Below, one piece after another: positions 307-21,942 of a DNA stretch of 33,442 nucleotides. Positions within the stretch are counted from its first letter, which is position 1. The number at the start of each line of letters is the position of its first letter. Made by a program: the position numbers and the translations under genes. A model generated the notes under the pieces. That model was not told where the DNA came from. It saw only the letters and a program-made list of their open reading frames with translations, and ran no database searches. Location: positions 1 to 33,442 of the forward strand of contig JAGXNS010000018.1 of assembly GCA_019894855.1 (NCBI GenBank), written 5' to 3'. The DNA comes from Promethearchaeota archaeon (lineage in GTDB: Archaea; Asgardarchaeota; Lokiarchaeia; Sigyniarchaeales; SOKP01).

Positions 307-907
307 ATAATTTTTGTTCTAAAGTAAAGCGTAAAAGGCGATCTTTATCTTCTTCAGCATATCCTATCCCAATTCTTTTTCCAAAAATAATATGTTTATC
401 TAAAATCTTTTTTCCTTGAGCAAAATAGAGTTTTGAATTTTCCGTACAAGAATCTTTCCCGTTATATTTTTCTTTAGTTATATCAAATGCCATACACAAT
501 TTGCTTGGTCCATCAACCAAATTCTTATAATTTCTTCCGATTTTTACATTTCGATTTTCCAACATTAAATCAATTCCTTCTATTGGAGAAATACTTCTTA
601 TAAAAATAGCACAGGGGGTGCCTATTGACTCAGTAATGACATTTAAGCAGAAATATACCCCATAAATATAATAAACGTAAAAAGTACCAGGTTTCATATA
701 CATAACTTTTGTTTTTTCAGTTTTTTTGTAGTTATAAGCGTGGCACGCTTTATCATTTGGACCTAAATATGCTTCGAGTTCTATTATCTTTCCTATAATA
801 TTTCCTTTATCTGTTTCTTTTATTAGATATCTACCTAACAGATCCTTAACCACTTCAACTGTATCTCTTGAAAAAAAGTCGGTAGTTAGTCTTTTAAATT
901 CACTCAA
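305..907 (-). CDS. 3-methyladenine DNA glycosylase (AAG/MPG family)
   Basis: Base-excision repair enzyme that flips out and removes alkylated or deaminated purines (3-methyladenine, hypoxanthine) by hydrolysing the N-glycosidic bond. The 200-residue protein covers the whole AAG fold. Seen in sequence: E-A-Y at residues 45-47, with E45 matching the catalytic Glu125 and Y47 the Tyr127 of human AAG; H56 matching His136; the MKPGTFYVY-YIYG core near residue 71; and GPSKLC near residue 134. The family is common in bacteria and eukaryotes and patchy in archaea. The ATG at 907 is the only sensible start. It is divergent from the URO-D-like gene (105-base gap) and convergent with the SRP RNA. Confidence 0.93.
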   Translation of the reverse strand: MSEFKRLTTDFFSRDTVEVVKDLLGRYLIKETDKGNIIGKIIELEAYLGPNDKACHAYNYKKTEKTKVMYMKPGTFYVYYIYGVYFCLNVITESIGTPCAIFIRSISPIEGIDLMLENRNVKIGRNYKNLVDGPSKLCMAFDITKEKYNGKDSCTENSKLYFAQGKKILDKHIIFGKRIGIGYAEEDKDRLLRFTLEQKL

Positions 908-1012
908 ATCGGAACCAGCACTACAAATTTGTAAAATTAAACTTTTATATATTTTAAAGACCTTCTTTATGTAATAAAAGATTTTAATAAAAGATAATTA
1001 ACTTGTGATAGA

Positions 1013-11830: not shown

Positions 11831-13195
11831 ATGACGACAAAAATTGTAGTAATCGGAATGGGATATGTTGGGATTCCTATGGCAGCATTATTAGCTGATG
11901 TAGATGATTTTTATGTTACAGGAATTCAGCGGAGATCGCATAGATCAGCATGGAAAATTGAGTGGCTTAATAACGGTAAAAATCCTTACGAGGGAGAAGA
12001 ACCTGGTCTAGATGAGCTAATCGAGAGAGTAGTAAAAGCAGGAAAATTCAAAGTTACTGAGAGTTATGATGATGTAAGCGCTGCTGATTTCATATTGATC
12101 GATGTTCAAACTCCCGTTGATGACGAAAAAGTTCCAAGATATGCATCCTTAAAAGAAGTATCCAAAAAAATTGCCAAACATATAAAAAAGGGAGCTACAG
12201 TAATAGTTGAATCTACGGTTGCCCCTGGAACAACAGATAACATTGTTCAATCTATATTGGAGGAAGAAAGTGGACTGCAAAGAGGTTCTGATTTTTATTT
12301 AGTGTTTTCATTTGAGAGAGTTATGCCAGGAAAATTAATTGAATATATCACGGATTTTCCTCGCGTAATAGGAGGTGGATGCGAACAAGCCAATGAAAGA
12401 AGCAAATTTTTATACGGTAAGGTCGTTAAAAAAGAACTGCAAGTAACTGATACGCTTACAGCGGAACTAACAAAATGCATAGAAAATTCATATAGGGACG
12501 TGAATATCGCATTTGCAAATGAAATGGCTTTGTTATGCGAGGATTTCAATAGAAATGTATTCGAAATCATCACTTTAATTAATCACCGTCATGACAGGAT
12601 GATGCATTATCCAGGTTCAGGAGTAGGAGGTCATTGTCTCACGAAGGATCCTTGGCTCTTACTCTACGGTTTTAACAAATATACCGAAAGAATTAACGAA
12701 TCGAAAATGAAAATAATTCCTGATTCGAGAAAAATAAACGATTATATGCCATATCATATGATCGAGTTGATGGAGAATGTGTTTAGAGATTCGCATCAGT
12801 TAGTAGACAATATTAAAATCACTCTTTTAGGTGTTTCTTACAAGGCAAATACTGACGATACCCGAAACACTCCAACTGAAAATATTGTAAAAATCCTAAA
12901 GACACGATATCATTCGCACAATATCGTATATATAGCACATGATCCTTATGTGAAAAAGCGAGATTATGATCTGACTGAACTTACAAGTGATTTCAACGAA
13001 GCGGTTGATAATGCAGATGTTTTACTTTTTACTACGAGTCATTCTGAATATTACAATATAGATTTGGATGATCTTAAAAAAAGAGTAAATACACCGATTA
13101 TTATTGATGGAAGAAACATATTTGATAAGAAAACTGTTGAAGAAAAAGGCTTTATTTACCGGAAAGTAGGAGAAGGTGCTAAAAAACCGGTTTAA
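11831..13195 (+). CDS. Nucleotide-sugar dehydrogenase (UDP-glucose / UDP-ManNAc dehydrogenase family)
   Basis: NAD-dependent enzyme that oxidises the C6 hydroxyl of a nucleotide sugar to a carboxylate in two steps, feeding surface glycan or N-glycan synthesis. Three domains are visible in 454 residues: the N-terminal Rossmann fold with G-M-G-Y-V-G-I-P (9-16), the central domain with V-E-S-T-V-A-P-G-T-T (126-135), and the C-terminal substrate domain with G-V-S-Y-K-A-N-T-D-D-T-R. Catalytic Cys269 sits in G-V-G-G-H-C-L. The S-F-E-R-V-M-P-G-K segment is closest to WecC/UDP-ManNAc and related enzymes, but the exact sugar is not certain. It is a lone gene with no clustered glycosyltransferases. Confidence 0.9.
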   Translation: MTTKIVVIGMGYVGIPMAALLADVDDFYVTGIQRRSHRSAWKIEWLNNGKNPYEGEEPGLDELIERVVKAGKFKVTESYDDVSAADFILIDVQTPVDDEKVPRYASLKEVSKKIAKHIKKGATVIVESTVAPGTTDNIVQSILEEESGLQRGSDFYLVFSFERVMPGKLIEYITDFPRVIGGGCEQANERSKFLYGKVVKKELQVTDTLTAELTKCIENSYRDVNIAFANEMALLCEDFNRNVFEIITLINHRHDRMMHYPGSGVGGHCLTKDPWLLLYGFNKYTERINESKMKIIPDSRKINDYMPYHMIELMENVFRDSHQLVDNIKITLLGVSYKANTDDTRNTPTENIVKILKTRYHSHNIVYIAHDPYVKKRDYDLTELTSDFNEAVDNADVLLFTTSHSEYYNIDLDDLKKRVNTPIIIDGRNIFDKKTVEEKGFIYRKVGEGAKKPV

Positions 13196-13207
13196 TATCT
13201 ATTTAAA

Positions 13208-13220
13208 TAAAAAAAATATT
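13208..13220 (-). terminator. T-run after SECIS-like element A
   Basis: On the minus strand a run of eight T (plus-strand A run within 13208-13217) begins about 10 bases after the base of structured element A. It fits the 3' end of a short transcript that includes the small selenoprotein gene and its 3'UTR structure. Confidence 0.45.
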
Positions 13221-13225
13221 GTTTT

Positions 13226-13290
13226 ATCTCAAGTCCTTGCGAGGAGCTTAATGATCAAATCCTACCATTTAACGATTTAACCATTGAGAT
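13226..13290 (-). promoter_or_regulatory. SECIS-like structured 3'UTR element, copy A
   Basis: Read on the minus strand this 65-nt stretch folds as a three-way junction. P1 is ATCTC/GAGAT (13286-13290 with 13226-13230). P2 is a long hairpin, 13280-13285 with 13250-13255 (one G-U), a U-G pair at 13279/13256, then AAATC/GATTT (13274-13278 with 13257-13261), with a 12-nt A-rich loop. P3 is TCCT/AGGA with loop CGCA (13242-13245 with 13234-13237). The two G-U type pairs exist only on the minus strand, so the RNA is read in that direction. It begins 88 nt after the in-frame TGA and 10 nt after the stop of the upstream small gene. Copy B has the same fold. I do not see the textbook archaeal or eukaryotic SECIS core, so the SECIS role is inferred from position and conservation. 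Confidence 0.6.
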
Positions 13291-13300
13291 TGGTTTTAAT

Positions 13301-13441
13301 TTATTTTTTAGGGGATTTTTTATTTTCTTCTGTTTTGCGCAATTTTAGCGCTCTTAAATACCACATATTGATTAGAGATCAACTGGTTTGATAACAATCA
13401 TCATCAAAACCGAAATCAAATTCGTTTTCTTCTTCAGACAT
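13301..13441 (-). CDS. Candidate small selenoprotein A (in-frame TGA at codon 21)
   Basis: 46-codon ORF if TGA (13379-13381) is read as selenocysteine; otherwise it is a 20-residue acidic peptide. The N-terminus is strongly acidic (M-S-E-E-E-N-E, then D13-D14-D15), with C16, Y17, T19 and S20 before U21. After U comes S-L-I-N-M-W-Y-L-R-A-L (22-32), a hydrophobic helix, and a Lys-rich tail ending at TAA 13301-13303. The paralogue at 13664-13819 shares D-[DE]-x-x-Y-x-T-[SG]-U-S-[LM]-[IV]-[ND] across the TGA, with different codons for Asp, Tyr, Thr and Ser, which indicates protein-level selection on both sides of the TGA. A TATA-like box lies about 26 bases before a leaderless start. I do not recognise the family; function unknown, plausibly redox. 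Confidence 0.6.
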
Positions 13442-13464
13442 AAGTTTTAATCACTATTACACTA

Positions 13465-13474
13465 TTATGTATAA
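13465..13474 (-). promoter_or_regulatory. TATA box candidate for selenoprotein A gene
   Basis: Minus-strand TTATACATAA is centred about 28 bases upstream of the ATG at 13441. This is the spacing expected for a leaderless archaeal transcript starting within a few bases of the ATG. Confidence 0.4.
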
Positions 13475-13566
13475 TAGAAAAAATAAGCCTATTAAGGGTG
13501 TGTTTTATAAATAATAAGGTTCTAGAAGGCTATTATTGTTGTTCGCAAAACTAATTCAATTATTTC

Positions 13567-13572
13567 AAAAAA
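13567..13572 (-). terminator. T-run after SECIS-like element B
   Basis: Six consecutive T on the minus strand, about 27 bases beyond the base of structured element B. Candidate 3' end of the selenoprotein B transcript. Confidence 0.35.
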
Positions 13573-13598
13573 TTCCTTTTACCTAAAATTTTGGTAGA

Positions 13599-13659
13599 AT
13601 CTCGAGTTCTTGCGGAACTTTAGATGAAATCCCAATATTTTTGATTTAATCTATGAGAT
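13599..13659 (-). promoter_or_regulatory. SECIS-like structured 3'UTR element, copy B
   Basis: Second copy of the three-way-junction element, on the minus strand. P1 is ATCTC/GAGAT (13655-13659 with 13599-13603). P2 is 13649-13653 with 13621-13625, a single U-C mismatch (13648/13626), then AAATC/GATTT (13643-13647 with 13627-13631) and an 11-nt loop containing AAAAA. P3 is AGTTC/GAACT with loop CGCAA (13615-13619 with 13605-13609). Relative to copy A, several outer P2 pairs and most of P3 differ in sequence but keep pairing, which is compensatory change. The element begins 88 nt after the TGA of the upstream gene, the same distance as in copy A, although the two ORFs differ by two codons after the TGA. 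It starts 4 nt after the TAA. Confidence 0.6.
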
Positions 13660-13663
13660 TTTT

Positions 13664-13819
13664 TTATTTTGTATTTTTTTTCACTTTTTTTTCTTTACGT
13701 TTTTGTTTTAATGAATTGATTATTTGTATAAATCCATCAACCATACTTCAGCCCGTACAGTAAGACTCGTCTGAAACTGGCTTTTTAACTCTGTTTTTCC
13801 ATTCCGATATAATGCTCAC
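13664..13819 (-). CDS. Candidate small selenoprotein B (in-frame TGA at codon 24, CxxU motif)
   Basis: 51-codon ORF if TGA (13748-13750) is read as selenocysteine; otherwise a 23-residue peptide. It begins at a GTG (13819); no ATG lies upstream in frame. Layout: N-terminal E-W-K-N-R-V-K-K-P (6-14), D17-E18-S19-Y20, then C21-T-G-U24, a classical CxxU redox motif, S-M-V-D-G-F (25-30), a hydrophobic segment to about L37, and a Lys/Arg-rich tail. It is a paralogue of the gene at 13301-13441. Copy A has Gln at the CxxU cysteine position but has a Cys two residues earlier. A TATA-like stretch (minus strand, about 13841-13850) precedes it. Small thiol/selenol redox proteins such as SelW use CxxU, but no other SelW feature is seen here. 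Confidence 0.6.
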
Positions 13820-13976
13820 AAGATTCTTCTTATTATTTATTTTAATAATAGTTGATTCTTAAAAGATTAGTTGATTATAATTGATAATGTTATTAGATAG
13901 GGTCTCTGATAAAAAAAACTTTAAATCAAACTTACTTTAAGAAGATTATTATAATAATTGTTAATCTCTAGTAAAA

Positions 13977-14243
13977 ATGGGATTGAAAGAAGAACTCTCA
14001 GAAATGAGAAAGACAATGGAAAAGTTAACAACTGAATTGCATGAAACTAACTTAGCAATAAGGGAATCTCTAAAATTAACATCTGACACCATTAAGGAAA
14101 TGAGCGATACATTCTCAAAAACCTTAGGAGACACACTAAAAGTAATGCAAGACATGAGAGTACAAGTGGATATTAGGGATAGTGTGTTAAAAAGCTTGGG
14201 AATAGAGGGTTTAATACCTGAGTTTTTAAAAAAAAAAAAATAA
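13977..14243 (+). CDS. Small coiled-coil protein
   Basis: 88-residue, almost entirely helical protein with heptad-like spacing of Leu, Met, Ile and Val from about residue 5 to 65 (M-R-K-T-M-E-K-L, I-K-E-M-S-D-T-F). A compact end follows: D-S-V-L-K-S-L-G-I-E-G-L-I-P-E-F-L and a Lys tail. No membrane segment or enzyme motif. I do not recognise a named family. It starts at ATG 13977, 157 bases from the divergent selenoprotein B gene. Likely a small oligomeric scaffold, but that is a guess from composition. Confidence 0.7.
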   Translation: MGLKEELSEMRKTMEKLTTELHETNLAIRESLKLTSDTIKEMSDTFSKTLGDTLKVMQDMRVQVDIRDSVLKSLGIEGLIPEFLKKKK

Positions 14244-15558: not shown

Positions 15559-16407
15559 ATGAATATTTGGGTTCTTGATTCAGAAAGCGGTATTACATTG
15601 CTATACAAGGCATATATGGATTTACCAATAGATGAGGATCTTATTAGTGGTTTATTAGCCGCCCTTAACCAGTTTACGACCTATGAATTAAAAGAGGGGA
15701 TAGAAAGCATCGAAATGGGTGGCCTAAGGTGGTCATATTTAGAGGAAAAAGATGCAAACTTATTATTTGTTGCAACTTCAGAAAAAACCATCAGTTCAAA
15801 CATGTTAAAAGCTCGACTTAACATTATCAAGCATTCTTTTATAGAACAATTTGTTTCTGATAATAGAGATGAATGGAAAAGCTTATGGAAAGGCAACACC
15901 GAACATTTCAGTTCATTTAAAGACATTATCGATGAGTATTACTCCCAGTGGTTAACCGCTGAAAATATAACAACGATTGCAGAATATTTTGATATATTAG
16001 GCGTCTTTCAACAGATTCTAAATTTACTCATCAATGTAATTGAAGGCCATTTTACAATCGAGAAAAAAGAGAATATTTACGATCAGATCGAATTCATGTT
16101 TAATAATTATCTGAATCACAAATATGTTCAAAATAATCCAGAATTAAGTAAAATCTCGTTTAGTCGCGTTTCTGGAATAAATATTATCAACATAGATCCG
16201 TCAAACTGTGATATGATTGTAGTAGAAAAACAAGTAATCAATCTTATTAATCGGCTTGTAAATAAAATAAAGCAGGAAGAAGGTTATTATGTGACCTTAC
16301 ACTATTTTATTGAAGAGAATGTTTTTGAATATCTAATTTCAAACATAGCATTATTAAGCGAATTAAACCTATTCAAATTTCTTCTGCAACTTTTTCTATT
16401 TAAATAA
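15559..16407 (+). CDS. Longin-like domain protein (Asgard trafficking-type)
   Basis: 282 residues. The first ~115 residues read as a longin/roadblock-like fold: strand I-W-V-L-D-S-E-S-G-I-T-L-L (3-15), helix with L-I-S-G-L-L-A-A-L-N-Q-F (28-39), strands S-I-E-M-G-G-L-R-W-S-Y-L and N-L-L-F-V-A-T-S, and a final long helix. In Asgard archaea such domains occur with small GTPases and are viewed as precursors of eukaryotic trafficking regulators. The remaining ~165 residues are mostly helical with a hydrophobic C-terminus, which I do not recognise. It starts at ATG 15559 and probably follows the SRPBCC gene in one transcript (85-base gap). Confidence 0.62.
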   Translation: MNIWVLDSESGITLLYKAYMDLPIDEDLISGLLAALNQFTTYELKEGIESIEMGGLRWSYLEEKDANLLFVATSEKTISSNMLKARLNIIKHSFIEQFVSDNRDEWKSLWKGNTEHFSSFKDIIDEYYSQWLTAENITTIAEYFDILGVFQQILNLLINVIEGHFTIEKKENIYDQIEFMFNNYLNHKYVQNNPELSKISFSRVSGINIINIDPSNCDMIVVEKQVINLINRLVNKIKQEEGYYVTLHYFIEENVFEYLISNIALLSELNLFKFLLQLFLFK

Positions 16408-17873: not shown

Positions 17874-19124
17874 TTAAGGGAAAATTCCTCTTAACTCAAT
17901 TGCTCTAGCAATTCTTGACACAGCGATGATGTAAGCTGCAGTTCTAAGAGGGATGTGCCTTTCTTCTGATATTTTATATGTTTCTTCAAATGCTTCAATT
18001 ATAATTCTTTTTAGCTCTTCATTAATTCGATCCAGTTTCCAGAAGTACGAATTAATACCTTGGACATATTCGAAGTAAGAGACGCAAACCCCACCACTAT
18101 TGGCGAGAATATCTGGTACAACATAGATTTCTTTCTTAAACAAAATTTTATCAGCTTCTGGTGTTGTAGGACCATTTGCACCTTCCAAAACAATTTTACA
18201 ATCTATTTTCTCCGCATTTTTTTCTGTTATTTGATTTTCTATAGCTGATGGGACTAATACATCACATTTTAATGTAAGTAGATAGTCGTTACTAATAAGC
18301 TTATACTTATCGTTTTTATAATCTTTTAATAAATTACCTTCTTTAGCCCATGCTTTTAATTTTTCTACATCTAAACCATCTTCGCAGTAGATGCCTGTTG
18401 ATATATCTGAGACAGCAATAACTTTACACCCGTGTTTATAGAGTATATCGGCAATCGTACCCCCTACGTTACCAAAACCTTGAACTACAATCTTTAAGGA
18501 CGTTAAGTCTAATCTTAGTTTTTCAACTAGAGCTTGAAGTACAAAATACAAACCCGTTCCGGTAGCTTCTGCTCTGCCAACTGAACCGCCAATTTCGATT
18601 GGCTTTCCAGTTACAACGCTAGGAATCGTTCGTCCTTTTTGCATACTGTAGGTATCCATAATCCATGCCATAATTTGTGGGTTAGTATTAACATCCGGCG
18701 CGGGAATATCAATATCTGGTCCTATGATACTAATAATTTCAGCAGTAAACCTTCTTGTAAGTCGTTCTAGCTCTTTTTTAGACAATTTAAAAGGATCAAC
18801 ACATATACCACCTTTAGCACCACCTAAAGGCAAGTTTAAAAGACTAGTTTTCCAAGTCATCCATATTGCTAAAGCTTTTACTTCATCAAGATTAACACCT
18901 AGAGAATATCGTAAACCACCTTTCCCAGGTCCTCTGATTGTTGAATGATGAACCCTATACCCTTCAAAAATTCTTACAGTACCATCATCCATCGTAATTG
19001 GAACAGAAACAATTAAAGAACGTTCTACTCTCTTTAAAAACTGAAGAATATTTGGATCTAAATCCATCACTTCTGCAACAATATCAATCTGCTTTTTTGC
19101 CATTTCAAAAGGATTAACGGTCAT
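17874..19124 (-). CDS. gdhA: Glu/Leu/Phe/Val dehydrogenase, paralogue 1
   Basis: NAD(P)-dependent oxidative deamination of glutamate (or a branched or aromatic amino acid) to the 2-oxo acid and ammonia. The 416-residue length is the hexameric archaeal GDH size. Visible: K68 in G-P-G-K-G-G-L-R, K92 in M-T-W-K, catalytic-site K104 in G-G-A-K-G-G, the D of P-A-P-D-V-N-T-N-P, the nucleotide fold G-F-G-N-V-G, and the late N-S-G-G-V-C-V-S-Y-F-E. A ribosome site AGGGG lies eight bases before ATG 19124. About 65% identical by eye to paralogue 2. A T-rich minus-strand run after the stop is a likely terminator. Confidence 0.93.
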   Translation of the reverse strand: MTVNPFEMAKKQIDIVAEVMDLDPNILQFLKRVERSLIVSVPITMDDGTVRIFEGYRVHHSTIRGPGKGGLRYSLGVNLDEVKALAIWMTWKTSLLNLPLGGAKGGICVDPFKLSKKELERLTRRFTAEIISIIGPDIDIPAPDVNTNPQIMAWIMDTYSMQKGRTIPSVVTGKPIEIGGSVGRAEATGTGLYFVLQALVEKLRLDLTSLKIVVQGFGNVGGTIADILYKHGCKVIAVSDISTGIYCEDGLDVEKLKAWAKEGNLLKDYKNDKYKLISNDYLLTLKCDVLVPSAIENQITEKNAEKIDCKIVLEGANGPTTPEADKILFKKEIYVVPDILANSGGVCVSYFEYVQGINSYFWKLDRINEELKRIIIEAFEETYKISEERHIPLRTAAYIIAVSRIARAIELRGIFP

Positions 19125-19227
19125 TATATTACCCCTTTTTTATTTTTTTTATTTTGCTTTATTTTATTTTATTTTTTATTTTTTATTTTAATTTCTGCTT
19201 ATTATCCATTGACTAAAATGCACACAT

Positions 19228-20478
19228 TTATGGAAATAACCCTCTTAATTCATGTGCTTTTGCTAATCGATTTGTGCTAATAGCATATGCTGCCGTTCTT
19301 AGTGATGTATCCCTTTTTTTTGAAAATTTATATATATCCTCAAAAGTATTTATTAGAATAGTTTTCATTTCACTATTAACGCGATCTAACTTCCAGAAAT
19401 AACTTTGCAAATCTTGGATATATTCAAAATAAGATACACATATTCCTCCACTATTTGCAAGAATATCTGGAACAACGACTATTTCTTTTTCCTCCAAAAT
19501 TTTATCTGCTTGAGAAGTTGTTGGACTATTTGCTCCTTCTAATAATATTTTACAATCTATCTTATCTGCATTTCTGCTATATATCTGATTTTCAACAGCA
19601 GCAGGAATTAACACATCACATTTAGTGCTTAATAATTCATCATTAGTTATTGGGCTTGTATTTTTACCTTCGTATTCTTTTAATAAATTACCTTGTTTTT
19701 TCCATTTAATTAATGTGTCTATATCTAAACCATCTGGTGAATAGATCCCTCCTTCTTCTTCAGAAATTGCAATAACATTGCAGGAATTGTTACATAATTG
19801 CTTGGCAACAACAGATCCTACTTTTCCAAAACCTTGAATTACAACACTCATTTTGTCTAAATTATAATTTAGTTTTTGACATAAATGCTGTAGTAAATAA
19901 ATCATTCCTGTACCAGGAGCCTCATCCCTTCCTATAGAACCTCCAATCTCAATTGGTTTACCAGTAACTACTCCAGTAATAGTTCGACCTTTTTGCATAC
20001 TATATGTATCCATCATCCAAGCCATTGTACGTGAGTCTGTGTACATATCTGGTGCGGCAATATCCTTATCTGGTCCAATCATATTTATAATTTCCATAGT
20101 ATATCTTCTCGTTAAAGTCTCTAATTCTTTGTTCGATAACTTTTTAGTATCGACCCTTATACCACCTTTAGAACCGCCAAGAGGTAACCCTAATAAAGCA
20201 GTCTTAAACGTCATCAAGAGGGCTAAAGCTTTCATCATGTCAAGAGTCACAAAGGGAGAATATCTTATACCTCCTTTTCCTGGACCTCGTAAAGTAGAAT
20301 GATGAACTCTGAATCCTTCAAAAATTTCGAGAGAACCATCATCCATCATTAGTGGGATAGAAACAATGAGGGCTCTTTCCGTCTTTTTTAGATATTCCAA
20401 AGAATTCGGGTTTAAATTAATTAATTCTGCCGCTATATCAATTTTTTTTTTAGCACTCTCATATGGGTTTATTATCAT
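19228..20478 (-). CDS. Glu/Leu/Phe/Val dehydrogenase, paralogue 2
   Basis: 416-residue dehydrogenase of the same family, closest to paralogue 1. The nucleotide-binding and lysine motifs are kept (G-P-G-K-G-G-I-R, G-G-S-K-G-G, G-F-G-K-V-G). The substrate-side segment is altered from the usual A-P-D-V-N/Y-T-N-P-Q-I-M to A-A-P-D-M-Y-T-D-S-R-T-M, and A becomes S before the catalytic K-G-G, suggesting a shifted substrate preference. I place the start at ATG 20478 because GGAGATT precedes it by seven bases; an in-frame TTG at 20493 is rejected. The 103-base gap to paralogue 1 holds an A-rich leader (minus strand). Confidence 0.92.
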   Translation of the reverse strand: MIINPYESAKKKIDIAAELINLNPNSLEYLKKTERALIVSIPLMMDDGSLEIFEGFRVHHSTLRGPGKGGIRYSPFVTLDMMKALALLMTFKTALLGLPLGGSKGGIRVDTKKLSNKELETLTRRYTMEIINMIGPDKDIAAPDMYTDSRTMAWMMDTYSMQKGRTITGVVTGKPIEIGGSIGRDEAPGTGMIYLLQHLCQKLNYNLDKMSVVIQGFGKVGSVVAKQLCNNSCNVIAISEEEGGIYSPDGLDIDTLIKWKKQGNLLKEYEGKNTSPITNDELLSTKCDVLIPAAVENQIYSRNADKIDCKILLEGANSPTTSQADKILEEKEIVVVPDILANSGGICVSYFEYIQDLQSYFWKLDRVNSEMKTILINTFEDIYKFSKKRDTSLRTAAYAISTNRLAKAHELRGLFP

Positions 20479-20691
20479 AATTCTAATCTCCAAATTAATA
20501 GTATTCTGATTAGTTAATATTTAATATTGTATTTAAAATTAAATTATTTTTAATAAACCAATCTATTATTAGGTATTAATTGTGTTTTTGTTCATTTTTT
20601 TAAAAAAAAAAAAAAGGATGTTCATTTTTTGTTATAAATTATAGAGTGAAGTATGACTTTCTAAAAATATATTAAAATTATGATACTAAAT

Positions 20692-21942
20692 TTATAACCA
20701 ACCACGCAATTTCATGGCACCTATCACCCTATCAATGGCTATTAAATATGCACCCATCCTGTAATTAGAATTACATTCTTTTGCTTTATGAACAACAGAA
20801 TTGTATGCTTTAGTTATTATTTTATCCATGGCAGTAAATACTTCTGCCTCAGTCCAGAAGTATTGATAATAACCTTGCACCATTTCGAAATATGAAACAG
20901 TAACTCCTCCAGCATTACATAAAAAATCAGGAATAACAATAATATCATTTTTAAATAAAATTTGATCTCCTGCAGGTGTTGTTGGTCCATTTGCGAGTTC
21001 TGCTACAATTTTACAATCTAAATTTTGTGAATTTTTACGTGTAATTACATTTTCAAGCGCAGAAGGAACTAAAACATCACATTCTAATTCTAACAATTCA
21101 TTATTTGTTATTTCTTGCGTTCCTTTCAATCCTACTACCGTGGAAGCTCTTTCTTTTTGTTCCGAAGCAGCATAAGCATTAATTCCATTTCTATTGTAAA
21201 TGCCCCCTTTTGAATCGGAAACCGCAATTATTTTGCAATTATAATCATCTTGCAGAATTTTACCCGCCCAAGAGCCAGCATTTCCGTATCCCTGTATTAC
21301 AACTCTTGCTCCATTTAAATCTAAATTAATACCTTTTGCGGCTTCTCTGATGCAATAAGACCCTCCTTTAGCCGTTGCGATTGATCGCCCAGCACTACCT
21401 CCTAAAGGTAATGGCTTTCCAGTTATTACAGATGGTGCATGTTTACGTACAATTATTTCATATTCGTCCATCATCCATGCCATAATTTGAGGGTTAGTAT
21501 AGACATCAGGAGCGGGAACATCAATATTTGGTCCTATAAAATCTGCTATTTTTCTAATATAACTTCTTGCAAGCGTTTCTAGTTCTCTATCACTCATCTC
21601 TCTTGGATTACATATGATGCCACCTTTAGCACCCCCCAATGGGATATCCACACATGCACATTTCCACGTCATCCAAGCACTTAATGCTTTTACAAGTGCA
21701 GCAGTTTCACCAGGATGCCACCTTATTCCTCCTTTCATTGGACCTCTCGCAGAATTGTACTGAGACCGAAAACCCTTAAAAGTTTTAAGAGAATTGTCAT
21801 CCATCTTCATTGTAAGCTTTACTTCAACGAATCTTTCAGGTTCACTTAAGGATTTATAAATTTCTCTATCACAACCTCGAATTTTACAAGCATTATAAAG
21901 TTGTATTTGAGAGATTTGAAATGGATCTAGATTTTCTTTCAT
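20692..21942 (-). CDS. Glu/Leu/Phe/Val dehydrogenase, divergent paralogue 3
   Basis: 416 residues, same fold but clearly more distant from the other two. Motifs: R-G-P-M-K-G-G-I-R-W-H-P, G-G-A-K-G-G-I-I-C-N-P, V-P-A-P-D-V-Y-T-N-P-Q-I-M-A-W-M-M-D, G-Y-G-N-A-G-S-W-A-G in the nucleotide fold (where the others have G-F-G-x-V-G), and N-A-G-G-V-T-V-S-Y-F-E. The classical substrate loop is intact, so this one may be the housekeeping glutamate dehydrogenase; that is inference. It starts at ATG 21942 without a ribosome site. The preceding gap (20494-20691) is plain AT-rich sequence. Confidence 0.92.
   Translation of the reverse strand: MKENLDPFQISQIQLYNACKIRGCDREIYKSLSEPERFVEVKLTMKMDDNSLKTFKGFRSQYNSARGPMKGGIRWHPGETAALVKALSAWMTWKCACVDIPLGGAKGGIICNPREMSDRELETLARSYIRKIADFIGPNIDVPAPDVYTNPQIMAWMMDEYEIIVRKHAPSVITGKPLPLGGSAGRSIATAKGGSYCIREAAKGINLDLNGARVVIQGYGNAGSWAGKILQDDYNCKIIAVSDSKGGIYNRNGINAYAASEQKERASTVVGLKGTQEITNNELLELECDVLVPSALENVITRKNSQNLDCKIVAELANGPTTPAGDQILFKNDIIVIPDFLCNAGGVTVSYFEMVQGYYQYFWTEAEVFTAMDKIITKAYNSVVHKAKECNSNYRMGAYLIAIDRVIGAMKLRGWL

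Follow-up and report, generated by a model that had tools for sequence, protein, structure and literature searches.

A pair of adjacent ~50-codon genes in Lokiarchaeia very probably encodes new small selenoproteins

Asgard archaea are used for tracing the origin of the eukaryotic selenocysteine (Sec) system. As given in the available text of Huang et al. 2024 (PMC11227280), the Asgard selenoproteome consists of seven families: SelD, FrhA/VhuU, HdrA, FrhD/VhuD, Prx-like, AhpF-N-like and DsbA-like. It was built on known families, and because the survey began with these, a new family could not show up in it. The same text credits Mariotti et al. 2016 with five Lokiarchaeal families. A 2026 review (PMC13188914), in its available part, ties the CxxU motif to redox function and names bin41 as the record holder with 19 selenoproteins. 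The two genes analysed here, A and B, lie close together in the window (the whole analysed stretch of 33,442 nucleotides) and very probably encode new small selenoproteins, as judged from sequence comparisons. In common with the described Asgard selenoproteins (PMC11227280, available text) are the UGA-coded Sec, the SECIS in the 3' UTR, the Lokiarchaeia hosts and the archaeal-type Sec synthesis. However, A and B fall outside all seven families, and none of the five credited to Mariotti et al. corresponds to either. The available texts of PMC11227280, PMC13188914 and PMC9723677, supplements aside, do not describe them; a record named bin41 carries both.

The original prediction placed two minus-strand open reading frames of 46 and 51 codons here, each with one in-frame TGA, and read them through as Sec. 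The coordinates proved exact, and the residues claimed to match before and after the TGA are present. The features of the locus are as follows.

Gene A: 13304 to 13441, minus strand; from its translation, a predicted 46-residue selenoprotein with a CYQTSU motif; stop codon TAA at 13301-13303.
UGA read as Sec in A (residue 21): 13379 to 13381, minus strand; TGA kept in this column across 23 aligned rows, TGT in genome G148.
SECIS-type element of A (three-way junction P1-P2-P3): 13226 to 13290, minus strand; covariation; model R1 scores it at 73.8 bits, but was built from aligned elements including both of the window, so that neither bit score is independent.
Gene B: 13667 to 13819, minus strand; from its translation, a predicted 51-residue selenoprotein with a CTGU motif and a Lys/Arg-rich tail; stop codon TAA at 13664-13666.
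UGA read as Sec in B (residue 24): 13748 to 13750, minus strand; TGA in all matches of the B profile.
SECIS-type element of B: 13599 to 13659, minus strand; covariation and 68.3 bits with the same model.

The 46 codons of gene A begin with ATG at 13441 and give the sequence MSEEENEFDFGFDDDCYQTSUSLINMWYLRALKLRKTEENKKSPKK. The 51 codons of gene B begin with GTG at 13819 and give VSIISEWKNRVKKPVSDESYCTGUSMVDGFIQIINSLKQKRKEKKVKKNTK. In the closest relatives, B starts with ATG at M-S-E-W; since this codon reads ATA in the window, translation there probably begins at the GTG three codons before it. The expected CxxU motif is found in B, and the corresponding spacing in A is C-x4-U. The A and B proteins range from 44 to 61 residues. 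The median net charge of A is -3, with values between -7 and +4, and that of B is +7, with values between 1 and 10. Profile comparison of the two (88% probability, E 3e-6) indicates that they are likely paralogues, as had been proposed.

Pairwise alignment of the genes together with their 3' flanks showed a conserved RNA element 3' of each gene that the original prediction had missed. The element is 61-65 nt long and overlaps or directly follows the stop codon. In 43 aligned elements, P1 is formed by AUCUC and GAGAU, P2 is a stem of ~10 bp with an AAA-N3-UAG loop, and the P3 hairpin, mostly with a YGCAA-like loop, abuts the 3' strand of P1. Pairing is kept in 92.7% of the cells, and 14 of the 20 pairs show double changes. 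The double-change cells number 102 compared with 31.3 +/- 4.9 in shuffles (0/500), and sliding of the pairing partners lowers all measures of pairing and covariation. An R1 search of the 65 genomes of the window's family, run with strict filters, gave 75 matches of 77-51 bits in 47 genomes, after which the scores drop to 34 bits or less. Assignment of the 75 matches by hand placed 28 behind A, 45 behind B and two behind truncated B genes, one running off its contig (G158) and one interrupted by an N gap (G154). Comparison of window positions 13100-13900 with Rfam gave seven matches, all under the gathering score.

Relatives of both genes were found in many genomes. Used as a single query, B matched 23 of 58 genomes (its own included) at E <= 2.8e-4, with the TGA inside every match, and A matched 10 of the 58 at E <= 3.6e-13. 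Profile searches were extended to 227 genomes of the phylum. The B profile matched 44 of these, all in the window's family and all with the TGA inside the match (44/44), after six weak matches lacking the TGA were discounted from a tally of 50 genomes. The A profile gave 29 matches in 27 of the 227 genomes, again all in the window's family, with TGA in 28 and TGT in one; weak matches in eight other genomes were discounted. Thus, sequence conserved past the TGA, whose absence from other genomes would have spoken against the prediction, is present in many. The search for Cys at the Sec position yielded one case, the TGT of A in G148, and no Cys form of B was found among the B profile matches in 44 genomes. 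A filter for a Cys at most eight residues before Sec, G or S at position -1 and an element nearby passed 23 A and 44 B proteins, 67 different ones in all; it leaves out the Cys-form A of G148 and the A proteins of G158 and G159 (...TTTU). The start Met, D9, D13, C16, Y17, S20, U21, W27 and Y28 are invariant in 23 aligned rows of A, and G23, U24 and D28 in 40 aligned rows of B. The Cys in the B rows is mostly at position -3 relative to Sec, with three rows at -5 and three at -8. In the B gene of G022 (contig C112), the reading frame is broken ahead of the TGA and the element is intact, which may reflect an assembly error or a pseudogene. A single match to A in a virus contig (L240), with no element there, looks like chance and was rejected.

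The pattern of substitutions bears out the claim that selection acts on protein on both sides of the TGA. In pooled pairs of moderate divergence, dN/dS for A is 0.08 before the TGA and 0.18 after it; the corresponding values for B are 0.21 and 0.34. The in-frame pN/pS after the TGA is 0.28 (A) and 0.44 (B), compared with 0.73-1.49 in the other two frames.

Two genomes offer natural experiments on the relation between element and TGA, each the single case of its kind. In G148 (assembly 99% complete, 6% contamination), A carries TGT (Cys) at the Sec codon followed by an ordinary TGA as its stop, and the neighbouring B keeps its TGA together with an element of 72.7 bits. A scan of 6.5 kb with the R1 filters off detected nothing above 12.1 bits apart from the element of B. 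In G142, no element lies behind B, and the single R1 match of the genome lies behind A. There, A starts after a Shine-Dalgarno-like GAGGTG, and its element comes after both genes. On sequence grounds, the G148 and G142 cases would mark the three-way junction as a SECIS. The best R1 match outside A and B (34.4 bits), likewise from one genome (G151), starts on the stop codon of a gene that matches AhpC-TSA (E 1.7e-19) and whose in-frame TGA lies within RDINUPFCRWHAARL. By the present assignment this gene is taken for the known Prx-like Asgard selenoprotein, a family named in the available text of PMC11227280. It was the only convincing case among the 24 inspected of the 48 sub-threshold matches listed; the others, many of which sit in long open frames, were rejected as further selenoproteins. 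The R1 matches in genomes other than G151 included no Prx-like gene. A 32-bit match on contig C163 of G025 (877-938, plus strand) has a P3-like end and no visible A or B gene upstream, and could be a relic.

The Sec machinery sought in the genome of the window is largely in place. Contig C33 encodes SepSecS (TIGR03531, 480 bits, cut-off 225), an EFSec-like protein (selB, TIGR00475) at 237 bits, just below the cut-off of 242, and, in the region 15811-15913, a tRNA-Sec with the anticodon UCA and two introns, one in the anticodon loop and one in the T loop. Two adjacent selD genes, both with an in-frame TGA, are located at C117:9765-12043. Each of these selD genes is followed 3' by its own SECIS-like structure. 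By eye, introns are also present in the tRNA-Sec of most relatives shown, some of them in the D arm and T loop instead. Because the introns interrupt it, the tRNA-Sec escapes the Rfam model RF01852, which scored above its cut-off in 24 of 58 genomes and in none of 23 in a later set. Within the family, SepSecS was found in 63 of 65 genomes. The exceptions, G006 and G016 (assemblies 85% and 79% complete), are also devoid of A/B elements and of a convincing tRNA-Sec, yet contain a TGA-containing selD. In a further 16 genomes, SepSecS occurs without any A/B element, indicating that A and B are dispensable for Sec users or absent from these assemblies. The link of the A/B element with SepSecS is weak.

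Taken together, A and B almost certainly represent two families of tiny selenoproteins, related to each other and served by the three-way-junction SECIS. The features by which selenoproteins are recognized were found as follows: the in-frame UGA is kept in homologues; a Cys homologue at the Sec column occurs in a single genome (A of G148); a SECIS, not of the published core type, is recognized in the mRNA by comparison; and the Sec machinery is encoded in the same genome, with the EFSec-like protein just under the cut-off. The interpretation of readthrough as Sec holds, and neither of the two findings named beforehand as refuting it turned up when sought. The protein appears to be selected on both sides of a UGA whose residue is probably replaceable by Cys, and the three-way-junction RNA at the mRNA end appears to go with the UGA and to be absent where the UGA became a Cys codon. 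The machinery present suggests that EFSec carrying Sec-tRNA(UCA) would insert Sec at the UGA as directed by the A/B SECIS.

TGA terminates three of 29 open reading frames elsewhere in the window, as would suit a UGA that is an ordinary stop here as well, leaving peptides of 20 and 23 residues or nothing, with a regulatory or noncoding RNA element unrelated to Sec. However, protein-level selection continues past the TGA, the TGA is kept in 44/44 B and 28/29 A matches, and the TGT of G148 coincides with the absence of the element, which together leave this explanation highly improbable. A decoding of the UGA by general read-through or a changed code (as Trp or Cys), with an element that is not a SECIS, deserves just as little credence: the one replacement observed is Cys, as would also be expected if UGA meant Cys, but TGA serves the window's genome as an ordinary stop and also ends the Cys-form A of G148, the element accompanies the UGA, and tRNA-Sec, SepSecS and TGA-containing selD are all present.

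Family searches and the genomic neighbourhood were compared for hints of function. Neither A nor B of the window has a match in Pfam or NCBIfam. The 40 B members gave scattered weak Pfam matches (best E 0.003), and the 23 A members none in NCBIfam. Neither profile matches a solved structure at E <= 1, and the amphipathicity of the helix after Sec is not above that of shuffles. Proteins of 44-61 residues are too short for a whole thioredoxin fold. Across 28 loci, redundant ones included, the pair adjoins a convergent gene of the UDP-sugar dehydrogenase family (a cluster in 25/28). Beside the pair, a short protein of 88-96 residues is encoded divergently in 16/28, and in seven other loci the open reading frame picked at this place is on the other strand. 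In the window, this 88-residue gene (13977-14243, no family above the cut-off) is transcribed away from B, possibly from a common promoter region. The gene at 15559-16407 lies near A and B in many compared loci; its match to the Longin domain of FUZ/MON1/HPS1 is weak and below the cut-off (E 7.5e-4). Three adjacent similar minus-strand genes of 416-421 residues at 17874-21942 resemble Glu/Leu dehydrogenases by eye. None of the genes in the 28 loci is a conserved operon partner of A and B. The pair looks like its own unit, and therefore the neighbourhood yields no functional partner. Thus, function is read from the Cys/Sec motif alone.

The Cys before Sec (CTGU in B, C-x4-U in A) may form a reversible selenenylsulfide, and the peptides could act as thiol/selenol redox carriers, possibly paired, as A is mostly acidic, B is basic and the genes are neighbours. 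A redox role is somewhat favoured by these motifs. VhuU is a separate small subunit of a methanogen hydrogenase, and it gives a precedent for small accessory subunits. Rather than redox carriers, A and B could be metal-binding or selenium-handling peptides or VhuU-like accessory subunits of a larger complex, which would fit their very small size, the variable Cys-to-Sec spacing, the acidic patch before the motif in A and the basic tail of B. However, CTGU is a CxxU motif, which is linked with redox function in the available part of PMC13188914, and an accessory role finds no conserved operon partner. A role of any of these other kinds is rather unlikely but carries real weight beside the redox role.

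Some selenium biology in these relatives of eukaryotes may thus have gone unnoticed, in genes that are easily missed with a stop codon in mid-gene. Two further families, whose element occurs in 47 of the 65 genomes of a single Lokiarchaeal family, suggest that the smallest selenoproteins can escape surveys. The Sec-to-Cys switch of G148 beside an intact copy and the one-element pair of G142 are ready-made comparisons. Since the core motif of current models shows no sign in it, the A/B SECIS would provide a direct test of archaeal EFSec recognition.

Comparison with the known SECIS types showed both shared and distinct features. A simplified type I pattern of the eSECIS-like AUGA_GA core, allowing no indels, fits 23 of 45 A/B elements and 484 of 900 shuffles. 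As the fit is no better than that of the shuffles, there is no sign of the published eSECIS core in the A/B elements. The same pattern fits 32 of 33 SelD UTRs, in longer stretches (110 nt) and unshuffled. The A/B elements appear to lack an AUGA_[G/A]A core below an upper stem of 7-15 bp, and no Euryarchaeal GAA_A bulge with a GC-rich upper stem is visible by eye in their consensus. The unpaired adenines of an eSECIS-like apical loop are present: AAA occurs in 45/45 elements, and the three A columns are invariant in 43/43 aligned ones. R1 did not detect the SelD SECIS at any of 17 loci (best 15.7 bits, E 0.2). A hairpin of at least 4 bp with an NGYRA loop occurs in 33 of 45 A/B elements versus 72 of 2250 shuffles, and in 21 of 33 SelD UTRs versus 222 of 1650 shuffles, with some of the 21 (such as L050 and L059) not at the place of P3. 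The likeness of the A/B elements to the SelD SECIS is confined to the architecture, the apical adenines and often the NGYRA-loop hairpin. Many Lokiarchaeal SelD SECIS have such an extra hairpin beside the 3' strand of the lower stem, which the SECIS model descriptions in the available text of PMC11227280 do not mention.

The small CxxU selenoproteins, among them the SELENOW-like ones (119-family table of PMC13188914, available part), have one Sec and a CxxU motif in common with A and B, which differ in their length of 44-61 residues and in having no convincing Pfam or NCBIfam match. The Asgard eSECIS-like elements (types I and II), as described in the available text of PMC11227280, resemble the A/B elements in their 3' position and A-rich apical loop, and in one case two genes share a single element, as also seen for A and B. 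A second SECIS class in Lokiarchaea, a three-way junction that lacks the kink-turn GA.GA core and whose AAA-N3-UAG loop and P1/P3 would be read by EFSec, serving two new families of ~50 residues, acidic A and basic B, as a joint selenol redox couple, can be put forward as a tentative possibility. In contrast to the AUGA_GA core described for the Asgard eSECIS-like elements (PMC11227280, available text), no conserved GA.GA quartet is seen in the A/B elements, which instead have a three-way junction with an AUCUC/GAGAU closing stem, an AAA-N3-UAG apical loop and an abutting P3 hairpin.
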